The notes under the pieces were generated by a model. It searched no databases. It saw only the letters and a program-made list of their open reading frames with translations, and was not told the origin of the DNA. Shown piece by piece: positions 24,236 through 29,320 of a DNA stretch of 43,276 nt (its first letter is position 1; each line of letters begins with the position of its first letter). Source of the stretch: Flavonifractor plautii ATCC 29863 (lineage in GTDB: Bacteria > Bacillota > Clostridia > Oscillospirales > Oscillospiraceae); the NCBI RefSeq assembly GCF_000239295.1, contig NZ_JH417666.1, positions 1 through 43,276 on the forward strand. The letters run 5' to 3'. The translations under genes were made by a program, and so were the position numbers.

Positions 24236-24271
24236 CGAGGGGGCGTCCCATCTGGGACGCCCCCTCGTTTT
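24236..24271 (+). terminator. Intrinsic terminator of the regulator-DUF998 operon
   Basis: CGAGGGGGCGTCCC (24236-24249) pairs perfectly with GGGACGCCCCCTCG (24254-24267) and is followed by TTTT, touching the spoIVA stop. On the minus strand there is no T-tract. Confidence 0.93.
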
Positions 24272-25748
24272 ACAGAATGATGCAGATCAGTCCGCCGGAG
24301 CCCTCGTTGATGATGCGCTGGAGTGTCTCCTGGAGCTTGGCGCGGGCGTCGTCGGGCATGCGCTTGAGCTTGCCGTTCAAATCCTCGCTGACCAGCTCAT
24401 GGAAGGACTTGCCGAAGATATTGGACTGCCAGATGGCCTTGGTGTCCCCCTCGAACTCCTGAAGCAGGAAATTGACCATCTCCTCGCTCTGCTTTTCGTT
24501 GCCCACGATGGGCGAGACCTCGGTTTCGATGTCCGCACGGATCATGTGGATGGAGGGGGCGGAGGCCTTCAGGCGCACGCCATAGCGTCCCCCCTGCTTG
24601 ACGATCTCCGGCTCCTCCAGCACCAGCTCGTCGGTGCTGGGCACCACGATGCCGTAACCGGTGGACTTAACCTCTTCCAGCGCCCCGGCTACCTTGTCAT
24701 ACTCCGTTTTGACGTGGGCAAGGCTGGAGAGCAGCTCCATGAGATCACCATCGTCGTGGATGGTGAAGCCGGACTGCTCGGAGAGCGTATCGTAGAACAG
24801 CCCCCGGGGCAGCTCCAGCTGGGCGGCGGCCAGACCGGTGCCCAGGCTGATGGAGGTGATACGGGCGCTGCTGACAGTGTCGCACTCCCCAATGGCGGTG
24901 ACCGTACGCTCCACATCCCGGATGCGGTGCATCCCGGCCGCCCCCTCCCGGATGGCCGTATACAGGCCGCTCTTGATGGGGTGGTCGTAAGGCAGGGCGT
25001 CCACCCAGGGGGGCAGGAACAGATCCAGCTCCTTCACCGGGAACTCGTAGAGCACCCCCTTGATGATGGCGGTTACCGCCGCCTCGTCCAGCTCCAGGCA
25101 GTCGGCGCACACACACGTCACGTCATAGCGGGAGGCGATGTCCGCCCGGATGGCCTGTGCCCGGTCGGAATTGGGGTAGGACGAGTTGAGCACCACCAGG
25201 AAGGGCTTTCCCAACTCCTTGAGCTCGGTGATCACCCGCTCCTCCGCCTCCAGATAGTCCTCCCGGGGGATGTCGGTAATGGAACCGTCTGTGGTGACCA
25301 CGATACCGATGGTGGAATGCTCCGCAATGACCTTGCGTGTGCCGATCTCCGCGGCCTCGGTCATGGGGATCTCATAGTCAAACCAGGGGGTGGTTACCAT
25401 GCGGGGGCTGTCGTCCTCCAGGGAGCCCACCGCGCCGGGAACCATATAGCCTACGCAGTCGATGAGGCGGACGGAGAAGGCCGCCCCGTTGTCCATGGTG
25501 ACCTGAACGGCCTCCTCCGGGACGAATTTGGGCTCGGCGGTCATGATGGTGCGCCCGGAGCCGCTCTGGGGCAGCTCATCCCGGGCCCGCTCCCGGCGGT
25601 ACACGTTGTCGATATTGGGGATGACCATGGTCTCCATGAAGCGTTTGATAAAGGTCGATTTTCCCGTCCGCACCGGCCCCACGACGCCGATATAGATATC
25701 CCCCTCGGTACGCAGGGCAATATCTTCATAGATCTTGCGTTGTTCCAC
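24270..25748 (-). CDS. spoIVA: Stage IV sporulation protein A, coat basement-layer ATPase
   Basis: SpoIVA polymerises on the outer forespore membrane by ATP hydrolysis and forms the platform for the spore coat; it is anchored by SpoVM. The 492-residue product has the same length as the B. subtilis protein. It shows the N-terminal Walker A GPVRTGKS (24-31), the DELPQSGSGRTIMTAEPKFVP block, LIDCVGYMVPGA, STIGIVVTTDGSITDI and the very conserved C-terminus ERIINEGSGGL-type ending in Ile-Leu. The start is GTG at 25748, 7 nt after AAGGAGG; eight in-frame upstream codons lie on the site. A SigE-like promoter precedes it. Confidence 0.97.
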   Translation of the reverse strand: MEQRKIYEDIALRTEGDIYIGVVGPVRTGKSTFIKRFMETMVIPNIDNVYRRERARDELPQSGSGRTIMTAEPKFVPEEAVQVTMDNGAAFSVRLIDCVGYMVPGAVGSLEDDSPRMVTTPWFDYEIPMTEAAEIGTRKVIAEHSTIGIVVTTDGSITDIPREDYLEAEERVITELKELGKPFLVVLNSSYPNSDRAQAIRADIASRYDVTCVCADCLELDEAAVTAIIKGVLYEFPVKELDLFLPPWVDALPYDHPIKSGLYTAIREGAAGMHRIRDVERTVTAIGECDTVSSARITSISLGTGLAAAQLELPRGLFYDTLSEQSGFTIHDDGDLMELLSSLAHVKTEYDKVAGALEEVKSTGYGIVVPSTDELVLEEPEIVKQGGRYGVRLKASAPSIHMIRADIETEVSPIVGNEKQSEEMVNFLLQEFEGDTKAIWQSNIFGKSFHELVSEDLNGKLKRMPDDARAKLQETLQRIINEGSGGLICIIL

Positions 25749-25793
25749 TTGCGATTCCTCCTTCGGCCGCATGAGCCGGTCGTTTTCTCTACA

Positions 25794-25877: not shown

Positions 25878-27404
25878 TTACCGCTTGCGTGGGATGAGCA
25901 GGAGCTGCCCCTCCGGGGCCACGTCCTCCTCCAGCGCGTTGGCGCACATGATGTCCTGTGCGGTGGTACCGTAAGACTTGGCAATGTCCCAGAGCCGTTC
26001 CCCGTTTCCTACCATACGCAGAACAATGGAGGGCTGGCCGGAGTGATCCCGGGGGGTACCCTCATCCATATGGACCGCAGACACGGCGGCTGTGGTGCGG
26101 CTGGTCATGGCCGTGTACCGGAAACCCACCGGGAAGCGCACCTCAATGCCACCCGTCGTCGGGGTGGCAAAGACAGGGGCGGTACAGCCGCAGTGGCAGG
26201 AGCAGGACGCCTCCTCAGGCAGCTCCAGGGGGCAGGCGGCCTGGAGCTGCCGGGTGATGGAGGTGCGGGCGCCGTCCTCCGTGAGGTAGAGCACCGTCAC
26301 GTTGGCCTCGGCGGTCAGCGTCACCCGTCTCCCGTCCCGGCTCTGGGTGATGGCGCCGATGGTCACATAGGCGTCCGACACCTCCTGGGCCAGCATCCCG
26401 GTTTCCAGGATCTCCCGCACTGTCAGCTCCTTCTCCCCGTGCTCCACCAGACGGCCCAGCGTATAGGTCCGGCTCTCCGCCGTAAGCTGGAAGGCGGTAG
26501 AGTACACATCCGTCAGCATCTGGAGCGTGCGCTCCTCCCGCACCACCGCTTGGGCCAGCAGCCCCATGGAGACGCTGATGGTGCGGCCGTCGCCGCTGTC
26601 CAGGGCGCAGTCCAGGCCGGTCAAAACCACGTACACATCACAGGTGGACTCCTCCCCCGCCCCGGTAATCTCCATGATCTGGGAGAAGGGCAGCTCATAT
26701 TCCGCTGTGCACAGTCCGCCGGCGGAGGAGCGGTAGAGCATCTGAAGCTGGCCCTCCCCCTTGAAAATAAGCTTGTTTCCGATGACCTTGGACTCACTGC
26801 ACCGCAGGGCAGCGCGGCACTTCAGCAGCTCTTCCGCCTCCGGCTTGCTGCCGGACAGGCTGATTTCATCAGAAAATGTAAAGGGCTTCTCCTGCACGCA
26901 GACTGTGGTACAGGCATCACACTGCTCAGACATCTGCTGCACACCAGCTTCCTCCGGAGCCAGCACTCCGCTGCAGATGTCATCCTCCACCGGGGCATAG
27001 ACCTGCACACAGAAAGCCAGATCCACCCGGACCAGCACCTTGCGGGGGTTGATCAGCCGGGCGTCTGCCCCCTGTACCCGCGGCAGGGCTACCACGCGGC
27101 ACAGAGGCGTCAGCGCCGGGTGCTCCAGAGTACAGGAAAAGGGCAGTTCCACCTCCATCCGGCGTATCCCCTCTTCACCGTCCGGGAGGTAGAGCAGCGC
27201 CGCCCGTACCGAGCCGGAGAGCTCCACCCGACCATCCTGGAGCACCTTGTCCCGCAGGCATACCACGCCCTCGGTATCGCAGATGCGAAGGATATCCGGA
27301 CAGGCATCCGGTACAATGCTCTCCAGTGTCTCCTCGCGGCAGACGGTTGTATCCAGTACGGCCTCATAGCCGCTCCGTTGAGTCCGATCCAGTTCCAGCT
27401 CCAT
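25878..27404 (-). CDS. sipL: SPOCS/DUF3794-LysM spore-coat protein (SipL/SpoVID-like)
   Basis: The 508-residue protein is built of repeated SPOCS (DUF3794) domains (segments such as CPDILRICDTEGVVCLRDKV and a later repeat around VYSTAFQLTAES) and ends in a LysM domain (about 462-506: VGNGERLWDIAKSYGTTAQDI...GQLLLIPRKR). This order is that of C. difficile SipL, which binds SpoIVA through its LysM domain to encase the forespore; B. subtilis SpoVID is the functional counterpart. Location directly upstream of spoIVA and downstream of spoVM supports the role. The ATG at 27404 follows AAGGAG; frames from further upstream are rejected. The exact number of SPOCS domains needs a profile search. Confidence 0.88.
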   Translation of the reverse strand: MELELDRTQRSGYEAVLDTTVCREETLESIVPDACPDILRICDTEGVVCLRDKVLQDGRVELSGSVRAALLYLPDGEEGIRRMEVELPFSCTLEHPALTPLCRVVALPRVQGADARLINPRKVLVRVDLAFCVQVYAPVEDDICSGVLAPEEAGVQQMSEQCDACTTVCVQEKPFTFSDEISLSGSKPEAEELLKCRAALRCSESKVIGNKLIFKGEGQLQMLYRSSAGGLCTAEYELPFSQIMEITGAGEESTCDVYVVLTGLDCALDSGDGRTISVSMGLLAQAVVREERTLQMLTDVYSTAFQLTAESRTYTLGRLVEHGEKELTVREILETGMLAQEVSDAYVTIGAITQSRDGRRVTLTAEANVTVLYLTEDGARTSITRQLQAACPLELPEEASCSCHCGCTAPVFATPTTGGIEVRFPVGFRYTAMTSRTTAAVSAVHMDEGTPRDHSGQPSIVLRMVGNGERLWDIAKSYGTTAQDIMCANALEEDVAPEGQLLLIPRKR

Positions 27405-27458
27405 AGCGTTCCACTCCTTGTACGGGCCGCAGCCCTTTTTCATGCATTCTGCTACAGA

Positions 27459-27487
27459 ACTATATGTACAAGGTGGGAAGACTATGC
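27459..27487 (-). promoter_or_regulatory. SigE-like promoter of sipL
   Basis: On the minus strand GCATAGT (27481-27487), 14-bp spacer, CATATAGT (27459-27466). It has the same spacing and nearly the same -35 as the candidate before spoIVA. It starts just after the spoVM stop and suggests co-expression of the basement-layer genes in the mother cell. Confidence 0.55.
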
Positions 27488-27494
27488 CCGTGGC

Positions 27495-27572
27495 TCATGC
27501 GCCCCGGATGCCGAAAATGGTCTTGAGTATTCCGCGCAGCGCTTTGGGTGATTTAACCACGACGATCTTCAT
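27495..27572 (-). CDS. spoVM: Stage V sporulation protein SpoVM (micropeptide)
   Basis: This 25-residue peptide begins MKIVVVKSPKALRGIL and ends in FGIRGA. B. subtilis SpoVM (26 residues, beginning MKFYTIKLPKFLGGIV) has the same plan: a short N-terminal strand, a central Pro (here P9), then an amphipathic helix that recognises the convex forespore membrane and anchors SpoIVA. The ATG at 27572 follows AGGGAGG by 8 nt and overlaps the stop of the 56-residue gene upstream as ATGA. The position after thiN matches the B. subtilis thiN-spoVM order. It would be missed by usual length cut-offs. Nothing else of this size and pattern is known to me at this locus. Confidence 0.88.
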   Translation of the reverse strand: MKIVVVKSPKALRGILKTIFGIRGA

Positions 27573-27739
27573 AGCACAGCCTCCCTGTCGTCCCAAATTC
27601 GTTTGAGCCAGTCTCTGCCCCGGCTACCCGCCCAAGCACCCGCACCGAAGGCGATCAGACAGGCCGGATGGAGCAGCAGGGCTGCCCCCCCCACGCACAG
27701 CGCTGCCGTTCCCAGGCGCTTTCTGGTTTGTAGCGTCAA
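27569..27739 (-). CDS. Unrecognised 56-residue membrane protein coupled to spoVM
   Basis: The protein has a basic N-terminus (TRKRLG), one long Ala/Gly/Leu-rich hydrophobic segment (about 10-38, perhaps a kinked or double hairpin around H24-P25) and a charged tail with Trp residues (GRDWLKRIWDDRE). The start is TTG at 27739, 8 nt after AAAGGAGG; another TTG at 27760 lies upstream of that site. Its stop overlaps the spoVM start by four bases, so the two are translated together. I do not recognise a family. The position suggests a forespore-membrane partner of SpoVM, which is inference only. Its ribosome-binding site is buried in the 27743-27793 stem-loop. Confidence 0.75.
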   Translation of the reverse strand: MTLQTRKRLGTAALCVGGAALLLHPACLIAFGAGAWAGSRGRDWLKRIWDDREAVL

Positions 27740-27742
27740 AAT

Positions 27743-27793
27743 GGCCGCCTCCTTTCGCAACTGGTTCTGTACCAGTATACGCAGGAGGCGGCC
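27743..27793 (-). promoter_or_regulatory. Large stem-loop burying the ribosome-binding site upstream of spoVM
   Basis: GGCCGCCTCCT (27743-27753) and AGGAGGCGGCC (27783-27793) are perfectly complementary. Inside lies ACTGGT (27760-27765) with ACCAGT (27771-27776), separated by two symmetric 6-nt internal loops and a 5-nt apex. On the minus strand the 3' arm contains the AGGAGG used by the 56-residue gene. It begins 16 bp after the thiN stop and is followed by ATTTTG, so it may instead be, or also be, a weak terminator of the thiN operon. A -10-like TATACT sits in the internal loop; RNA starting there would lack the 5' arm and free the site. Confidence 0.6.
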
Positions 27794-27809
27794 AAGGGTT
27801 CCCAGTTCA

Positions 27810-28442
27810 TCAGACGCGCTGGCTCCGGATCAGCAGGGCGCGGCCGGCGGAAAGGCAGATCTCCACCTCGTCGCCCAGCGGCTCATTACTCACTGAGAGG
27901 GTGTCGCCGCGAGTGAGTACCGCGTCGGTCAGCGGATATTTGAGTCCCCGCAGGGTGACGCCGGTCACGCGGCGATCCAGAGGAACCAGAGAGAGGTAGT
28001 GATAGCAGGGACGGTTGGTTAGCCGCAGCACTCCACTGTCCAGCAGGCGCACCTCATTATCGGCATCCACCAACAGCGCCCGGCCGCCGTGGTCGGCGAT
28101 CCACTCCAGAAGCACCAAGTTGGAGGCGGTATGGTCCAGCCGTCCCCCAGTACAGCCGCACAGCAGGAGCTCCCGGTAATCCAGCTCCAGTGCCTGATCC
28201 ACCGCTGCCTGGAGGTCTGTCATATCCTTTTCCACCGGAAGCGTGATGCAGGGGACATCGCCCTCCGGCGCACCGCCGGAGTCCCAGTCGCCGATCAGAT
28301 AGTCCGGCCGCAGTCCGGCCGCACGGGCGTTGCGTACCCCGCCGTCGGCACAGAAGACCGTCCATCCGCCACCGTCCAGATAAGGGCGGAGAAAGGCCCC
28401 GTCTCCGCAGGGGACTGAGCCGAAAAGCAGCGCGCGCTTCAT
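27810..28442 (-). CDS. thiN: Thiamine pyrophosphokinase
   Basis: ThiN transfers pyrophosphate from ATP to thiamine to form the cofactor TPP. The 210-residue protein has the family motifs ADGGVRNA (32-39), DYLIGDWDS (47-55), the PVEKDMTDLQ segment and GCTGGRLDHTASN, plus a C-terminal beta-domain (VTLRGLKYPLTD, SNEPLGDEVEI). The ATG at 28442 overlaps the rsgA stop as ATGA. The rpe gene that lies between rsgA and thiN in B. subtilis is missing here. No TPP riboswitch is visible; expression comes from the upstream operon. Confidence 0.95.
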   Translation of the reverse strand: MKRALLFGSVPCGDGAFLRPYLDGGGWTVFCADGGVRNARAAGLRPDYLIGDWDSGGAPEGDVPCITLPVEKDMTDLQAAVDQALELDYRELLLCGCTGGRLDHTASNLVLLEWIADHGGRALLVDADNEVRLLDSGVLRLTNRPCYHYLSLVPLDRRVTGVTLRGLKYPLTDAVLTRGDTLSVSNEPLGDEVEICLSAGRALLIRSQRV

Positions 28443-29320
28443 TTCCGTTCCCATTCGGGCACTTCCTTTGCCTGCTGATACAGCCGTACATAGCTGGCGT
28501 GACGGCTGGGGGCGATCTCTCCAGCCTTTACCGCAGCAAGAACTGCACAGCCCTTTTCCTTTACATGAGAACAGCCGGTGAATCGGCATTGCTCCAGATA
28601 AGGGGCGAACTCCCGAAAGGTATATTGCAGTTCCTCAGGGCGACGGAGCTCTATCTCCTCCGTGTCGAAGGAGGAGAAGCCGGGGGTATCTGCCACAATG
28701 GCGCCGGAGCGGAGCCGAAACAGCTCCACATGGCGGGTAGTATGGCGGCCACGGCCCAGCTTGTCGGAGACCTCCCCCACCTGGAGGCGGAAGCCGGGCT
28801 CCAGGGCGTTGAGTATGCTGGATTTGCCCACACCGGAATTTCCTGTAAAGGCAGAAACCTTTCCAGCAATTGCCCCAGAGAGCTCCTCCAGTCCCTCCCC
28901 TGTCTCGGCGCTCACCCGGAGGGTGGGGAACCCGGCAGCGCGGTAGGTCTGGTAGAGCTCCTCCGCCGCATCCAGGTCGCACTTGTTGATGCAGATGACC
29001 GGCTGGCAGTTCCGCCCCTCCGCAATGGAAACCACGCGGTCAATCAGGAATGGGTCGGTAACTGGAATGGCGCCGGAGGCAATGACTACGAGCTGATCAA
29101 TGTTGGCCACCGCCGGTCGCTGAAATTCGTTCCTGCGGGGCAGGATTTCATCGAGAATCCCCGCCCCGTTATCCAGAGGGGTGAAGATGACCTTGTCCCC
29201 CACCAGGGGGGTGATCCTCTGATGGCGGAACTTTCCCCTTCCGCGGCAGGCGACCAGAACCCCATCTACGCCGTCCACGTAATAGAAGCCGCTGATGGCC
29301 TTTAAAATAATCCCTTCCAT
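28439..29320 (-). CDS. rsgA: Ribosome small-subunit biogenesis GTPase RsgA
   Basis: RsgA is a circularly permuted GTPase that checks late 30S maturation. The 293-residue protein has an N-terminal OB domain (1-65), then the permuted G motifs in order: NKCD (112-115), GNSGVGKSS (160-168) and DTPGFSSF (about 212). A C-terminal zinc-binding domain follows (CRFTGCSHVKEKGCAV with a later SRH). The start overlaps the prkC stop by one base (TGATG) and its stop overlaps thiN. In B. subtilis (CpgA) it is linked to PrkC phosphorylation, and the two genes are adjacent here as well. Confidence 0.96.
   Translation of the reverse strand: MEGIILKAISGFYYVDGVDGVLVACRGRGKFRHQRITPLVGDKVIFTPLDNGAGILDEILPRRNEFQRPAVANIDQLVVIASGAIPVTDPFLIDRVVSIAEGRNCQPVICINKCDLDAAEELYQTYRAAGFPTLRVSAETGEGLEELSGAIAGKVSAFTGNSGVGKSSILNALEPGFRLQVGEVSDKLGRGRHTTRHVELFRLRSGAIVADTPGFSSFDTEEIELRRPEELQYTFREFAPYLEQCRFTGCSHVKEKGCAVLAAVKAGEIAPSRHASYVRLYQQAKEVPEWERK

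Follow-up and report, generated by a model that had tools for sequence, protein, structure and literature searches.

Several genes are known whose translation start is hidden in RNA started upstream of them. For the transposases of IS10 and IS50, RNA started outside the element folds over the transposase start, and no such fold forms in RNA that starts at the element's own promoter. In phage T4, early RNA of gene e (lysozyme) and of I-TevI folds over the ribosome-binding site, and the late promoters of these genes give RNA without the 5′ strand, which is translated (PMC3014915, PMC2988022). In Bacillus subtilis, a hairpin of 20 or more pairs at sigG (spoIIIG) has been suggested to keep readthrough RNA from being translated; it does not form in RNA from sigG's own promoter (PMC5942855).

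In this study, a putative element of this kind was analyzed upstream of spoVM in Flavonifractor plautii ATCC 29863, within a window of 43,276 nucleotides (the whole stretch of DNA analyzed; contig NZ_JH417666.1, positions 1 to 43,276). IS10 and IS50 differ from it in being mobile elements without a sporulation promoter. With sigG it shares a sporulation gene located downstream of another operon and a predicted readthrough-blocking hairpin that, at spoVM, would be absent from own-promoter RNA. Gene, sigma factor and sequence are different, and the available text of the sigG report describes a translation block, not a terminator; at spoVM, in contrast, the loop contains the -10 and the design is shared by many genera. 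In T4 gene e and I-TevI the ribosome-binding site is hidden in upstream-started RNA, as is predicted at spoVM, but they are phage genes dependent on a late phage sigma factor, with no terminator role described in the text available from those reports, whereas spoVM is a chromosomal developmental gene. The principle is already known from T4 gene e and I-TevI and has been proposed for sigG; the spoVM case looks new, and word-matched searches of the open-licence literature found no report of such an element at spoVM or, in sporulation, of a promoter placed within a terminator.

Read along its minus strand, the window has the gene order prkC, rsgA, thiN, the hairpin, a 56-aa ORF, spoVM, sipL and spoIVA. 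By profile matches, thiN (thiamine diphosphokinase, 27810-28454) closes the run prkC-rsgA-thiN upstream of the hairpin, and its stop codon lies 15 nt from the stem of the hairpin. The order of these genes suggests that they form one operon whose transcripts would reach the hairpin. The small ORF (27569-27739), hydrophobic by eye, begins just past the stem with TTG at 27739 and matched nothing in Pfam or NCBIfam at E 0.01. Its stop at 27569 overlaps the start of spoVM (ATGA, 27572-27569), a layout that agrees with the coupled small gene of an earlier note on this DNA and from which translational coupling would be expected. The 25-aa spoVM (27495-27572) scored 30.3 bits against NCBIfam SpoVM_broad, slightly below the cut-off of 31. 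It is followed by sipL (25878-27443; SipL/SPOCS domain and LysM, by domain matches) and spoIVA (24270-25772; profile matches). In other genera, short hydrophobic ORFs (by eye) occupy the corresponding place. In seven loci (L086, L088, L090-L093, and L096), a small ORF was followed by a sipL-like gene, judged by eye, and no spoVM was seen between them.

Folding of the minus strand, as suggested in the earlier note, gave an outer stem in which 27783-27794 pairs perfectly with 27742-27753; these 12 pairs exceed by one the 11 claimed there for a perfect GC-rich stem. Inside it are two inner stems, one of 4 pairs (27778-27781 with 27756-27759) and one of 6 (27771-27776 with 27760-27765), whose 5′ strand (27771-27781, with one unpaired base between the two) includes the -10-like motif described below and whose 3′ strand is 27756-27765. 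The Shine-Dalgarno sequence of the small ORF, AGGAGG (27748-27753), is entirely within the 3′ arm of the outer stem and is left uncovered by the inner stems; the earlier note had it covered by both the outer and the inner 6-bp stem. TATACT is in the loop of the outer stem at 27779-27774, where that note had placed it. The stem is followed by a T-tract (27738-27741) of 4 T, compared with 5-8 in many relatives. The minimum free energy of the hairpin was -39.2 kcal/mol, against a mean of -17.8 (sd 3.1, z -6.85) for 200 dinucleotide shuffles, none of which was as stable (energies being predictions at 37 C), and the outer stem was predicted to persist when a longer transcript was folded. The 71-nt hairpin region is single-copy in the genome. 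Since 18 inverted repeats with arms at most 60 nt apart, this stem among them, were found in the window, an inverted repeat is by itself nothing unusual in this DNA. The hairpin itself is real and was confirmed.

Among 20 congeneric genomes, 17 contained thiN and 17 the exact loop motif, with one exact site each; the other three were 75-82% complete and had no thiN match. Across named genomes, the exact motif was found in 17 records, 13 from Flavonifractor, 1 from Pseudoflavonifractor, 2 with order-level names and 1 from Veillonella. The Veillonella match was discarded as a chance one, the flanking arms being all absent. The 17 congeneric loci and L019, from another genus, fold into related hairpins, in which the outer arms differ between relatives yet stay paired, G-U wobbles included. 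In the alignment of these 18 sequences, 6 of 17 pairs had changed on both sides, which none of 500 shuffles reached and slid partners matched less well, and one of five covariation measures (further pair types) was unexceptional, with 59 of 500 shuffles reaching it.

A covariance model built from the 18 aligned sequences, carrying no gene information, was searched against 300 genomes of the family; the genomes compared were mostly drafts. The best 24 matches outside the genus (34.6-53.5 bits) all fell in the operon for the basement of the spore coat: 17 precede spoVM, and the other 7 precede a small ORF with a sipL-like gene (by eye) behind it; one of the 24, L077, is the same site as the training sequence L019. 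The first match off the operon was L204 (34.2 bits). Fourteen weaker matches, taken for inspection because they scored below 34.6 bits (L196-L209, about 24-34 bits), comprised 6 at spoVM and 8 elsewhere; among the remaining weak matches are extra sites in congeneric genomes. An order-wide search (295 genomes, E ≤ 1e-4) gave one match outside the family, L273, at a different gene. The hairpin is present repeatedly within Flavonifractor and also in many further genera of the family Oscillospiraceae.

For a test of pairing independent of the model, spoVM loci were gathered by a DNA pattern for spoVM itself, blind to hairpins; among the pattern matches listed, the loci used were those judged to be spoVM by translation and not every match. 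The pattern missed 5 of 17 congeneric loci (L009, L010, L012, L014, and L016), and L130 and L193 gave no spoVM. Pattern loci, congeneric loci and model matches together made 99 loci, 96 of them with a promoter-like site; L142, L164, and L179 (promoter score <17) were excluded from the pairing, hairpin, terminator and Shine-Dalgarno counts. The 5′ spacer of each locus was paired with its own leader and with leaders of other genera. Among 73 loci chosen without the model, own-arm pairing was stronger in 21 of 22 genera, and none of 1000 permutations reached the observed own-pairing mean. A strict hairpin was present in 69 of 96 loci, compared with 643 of 2824 swapped cross-genus pairs, 23% of swapped arms passing because spacers are C-rich and leaders G-rich. 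Loci of one genus are not independent. Counted by genus, most loci had a strict hairpin in 23 of 32 genera, and at least one locus had it in 25 of 32. A further alignment, A3, was fitted to the model and includes copies of some hairpins from the opposite strand, and weight was therefore placed on the permutation test. The possibility, raised in the earlier note against its own proposal, that the arms are not conserved or do not covary was not borne out; across genera, the sequences indicate that the arms are conserved as pairing and co-adapted.

The locus has a GC-rich stem followed directly by a T-tract, as in an intrinsic terminator. A lenient hairpin definition gave 79 of 96 loci, with poor calls among them (e.g., L135, L138, L150, L162, and L172). 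Right after the stem, a run of at least 4 T was found in 54 of these 79, a count that is too low where the stem takes up Ts. The 3′ arm contained a Shine-Dalgarno-like sequence in 61 of 79 and lacked one in 18, so the translational lock would not be universal. In 20 of 79 (L162 and L172 being poor calls), spoVM starts at most 16 nt from the stem with no small ORF between.

Loci without the hairpin often have another terminator. A separate upstream terminator was detected in 16 of 26 loci without a strict hairpin, in 5 of 70 with one (L146 being assigned hairpin-positive by hand in this count) and in 0 of 96 shuffled regions; the trade-off clusters in genera g103, g105, and g109, and its p of 8.6e-8 therefore overstates independence. 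In g103 and g105, 11 of 13 loci without a strict hairpin had a separate terminator before the promoter. Neither a strict hairpin nor a detected terminator was found in 10 of the 26. These counts supersede an earlier greedy terminator scan (2 of 64 vs 4 of 32, p 0.09). Two Flavonifractor loci, L011 and L013, have a separate terminator before the promoter together with a G.A mismatch in the outer stem, and look as if the hairpin were relaxing.

Folding predicts a stable hairpin over the ribosome-binding site in upstream-started RNA. Across the 58 loci whose Shine-Dalgarno is buried, the mean predicted unpaired probability of this site was 0.06 in readthrough RNA and 0.43 in loop-started RNA, being higher in the latter in 57 of 58; in the window, the values were 0.00 and 0.39. 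The predicted opening is moderate in many species, the loop-started leader being more than 0.5 open in only 22 of 58 loci. From these comparisons, termination is probably the wider function of the hairpin and the Shine-Dalgarno lock an addition to it. With only 4 T, termination in the window may be partial.

The -10-like motif in the window, CGTATACTG (27773-27781, minus strand), is within the outer stem and is near-invariant in the family, reading C[G/A]TATACTG among the loci. Upstream of it is a sigmaK-like -35 element, GAACC (27797-27801), in which ACC is followed after 15 nt by the -10-like motif (consensus from PMC3789822 and PMC517825). With the -10 as the sole criterion for picking sites (91 of 99 loci, from 31 genera), AC occurred 15-17 nt upstream with a genus-weighted frequency of 0.90, compared with 0.10-0.25 when four other ranges of offset were taken. 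In g103 and g105, where the hairpin is mostly missing, a related -10 and the AC spacing are kept. As motif and upstream AC are kept without a hairpin, they behave as a DNA promoter and not as an RNA motif. The reading of loop motif and upstream AC as a promoter, with the 5′ arm (27783-27794) as most of the spacer between -35-like and -10-like elements, is well supported by this comparison, and the earlier note's guess of a promoter in the loop gains from the near-invariant motif and its fixed distance from AC. Motif and spacing put the predicted start in the loop, at 27766-27768 by spacing from the -10-like motif only, and RNA from this promoter would lack the 5′ strand.

An ECF-sigma promoter (GAAC...CGTATA) was considered for the loop motif and rejected, with 6 genome sites against 19 for the reversed control and no sign of a regulon. 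The pattern ACN16CRTATACTG had 7 sites in four congeneric genomes, of which 2 were the spoVM element; the other 5 were all preceded by TTG (TTGAC[AT]) and were read as ordinary housekeeping promoters. In L154, L155, L184, L185, L187, and L189, from g103 and g105, the promoter spacer is without an overlapping hairpin and holds GGACAG or GGACAA, which we take to resemble a SpoIIID box.

In B. subtilis, spoIIIAA is a sigmaE gene and dpaA a sigmaK gene. In the genus of F. plautii, all 18 spoIIIAA loci examined had ATA upstream (spoIIIAA matches being mostly just below the curated cut-off, with 2 of 20 above), and AC was found before dpaA in 14 of 19 loci, counted among the two top sites listed, the window's own dpaA not being among the 14; this comparison excludes two weak matches, L253 for dpaA and L272 for spoIIIAA. 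SigmaE and sigmaK promoters have a common -10 and different -35 elements, ATA for sigmaE and AC for sigmaK (PMC3789822), and the gap in sigmaK promoters of B. subtilis is 14-16 bases (PMC517825). The spoVM promoter has AC instead of ATA, a gap in this range and a -10 resembling that of sigmaE and sigmaK, C[G/A]TATACTG and not plain CATA. Within 400 nt above the hairpin, no ATA-type promoter was found in any of the 17 congeneric loci. The sipL promoter provides a contrast: in all 17 loci it is ATA-type, that is sigmaE-type, and in the window it reads GCATAGT-14-CATATAGT (27459-27487, minus strand).

On the basis of the AC -35 and the spacing, the spoVM promoter is probably sigmaK-like. This is at odds with B. 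subtilis (PMC517825) and Clostridioides difficile (PMC5607322), in which spoVM is sigmaE-dependent. The gene is the same in all three, and mother-cell control would be shared; according to the text available from those reports, the control is by sigmaE, plus SpoIIID in B. subtilis, whereas the -35 here is sigmaK-like.

Similar hairpins were seen at other genes. At L202 (501-556, genome G322), a sigmaK-like promoter, ACC-15-CATATACTG, is within a similar hairpin with a buried Shine-Dalgarno and precedes an unrelated small gene (MPKIDELLNSRQAAGLLK...); the hairpin design may thus be reused beyond spoVM. L273 (1501-1555) is in genome G589, which belongs to a different family of the order. There a small ORF and a second ORF are preceded by a similar hairpin, whose loop contains GCATACTGG, and by a T-tract and a start codon, with no AC at the -35 distance.

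We regard it as quite probable that terminator, sporulation promoter and ribosome-binding site are interleaved at spoVM, three signals packed in about 60 bases. The -35/-10 spacer would encode the 5′ arm, the -10 would sit in the loop, and the leader with its Shine-Dalgarno would encode the 3′ arm, with the T-tract and the start codon after it. Transcripts of prkC-rsgA-thiN would form the complete hairpin, at which polymerase would terminate; if polymerase read past it, the Shine-Dalgarno would be closed in that RNA. Mother-cell polymerase, suggested by the sigmaK-type -35 although sigmaE is also possible, would initiate RNA within the loop. Because such RNA lacks the 5′ arm, it is proposed neither to terminate nor to hide the Shine-Dalgarno, and the small ORF would be translated from it and spoVM by coupling. 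The switch outlined in the earlier note is largely supported; the terminator role, the sigmaK-like -35 and the known precedents were absent from it.

The same hairpin might be a plain intrinsic terminator of the prkC-rsgA-thiN operon, holding the Shine-Dalgarno in its 3′ arm because a G-rich leader was at hand, with no role for occlusion. The frequent T-runs, the discrete terminators substituting at loci without a strict hairpin, and the hairpins without a buried Shine-Dalgarno, as in g67 and g98, all agree with this. The earlier note had named as its own counter-case a structure that is only the thiN terminator, and the terminator-like half of this stands. The other half, that it is nothing else, does not sit well with a Shine-Dalgarno in the arm of 61 of 79 hairpins or with arms that flank the -10 at a fixed place, which would be superfluous for a terminator alone; the T-tract in the window is also short for so stable a stem. 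We therefore consider a plain terminator unlikely.

Two further explanations are much less probable still. The loop, GCGUAUACUG, is more conserved than the stem, as would be anticipated if it were a regulated RNA element that governs readthrough into spoVM by binding a protein or ligand; the survival of motif and upstream AC in g103 and g105, mostly without the hairpin, fits a DNA promoter instead, and an Rfam covariance search of the window gave no match at gathering, the best weak one being a plant microRNA (E 0.22), so that we give this explanation very little weight. Equally improbable is a repressor-binding operator in the DNA, a palindrome lying across the promoter, in which complementarity would reflect dimer symmetry and not RNA pairing. 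The inner repeat ACTGG...CCAGT, which overlaps the -10-like motif, is of the form that an operator would take, but outer arms that vary and keep their pairing, G-U wobbles included, are an RNA signature, and the stem is followed by a T-run in 54 of 79 hairpins. The interleaved terminator, promoter and ribosome-binding site remains the reading that we prefer.

Taken more widely, and only tentatively, Oscillospiraceae may use the promoter-in-terminator as a developmental check valve, with the architecture kept over many genera while the sequence turns over and some members swapping to a terminator followed by a promoter, and spoVM may have moved from early sigmaE to late sigmaK control. If this is true, SpoVM would appear later than sipL and spoIVA, which is not the order in Bacillus and Clostridioides. 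The arrangement suggests a clean insulation of a developmental gene inside a housekeeping cluster, in which about 60 bases would serve as terminator, promoter spacer and ribosome-binding site. The many natural variants, together with the genera in which a separate terminator stands in for the hairpin, could help to separate the roles of termination and occlusion. The sigmaK-like -35 raises the question of when the base of the spore coat is laid in gut Oscillospiraceae.
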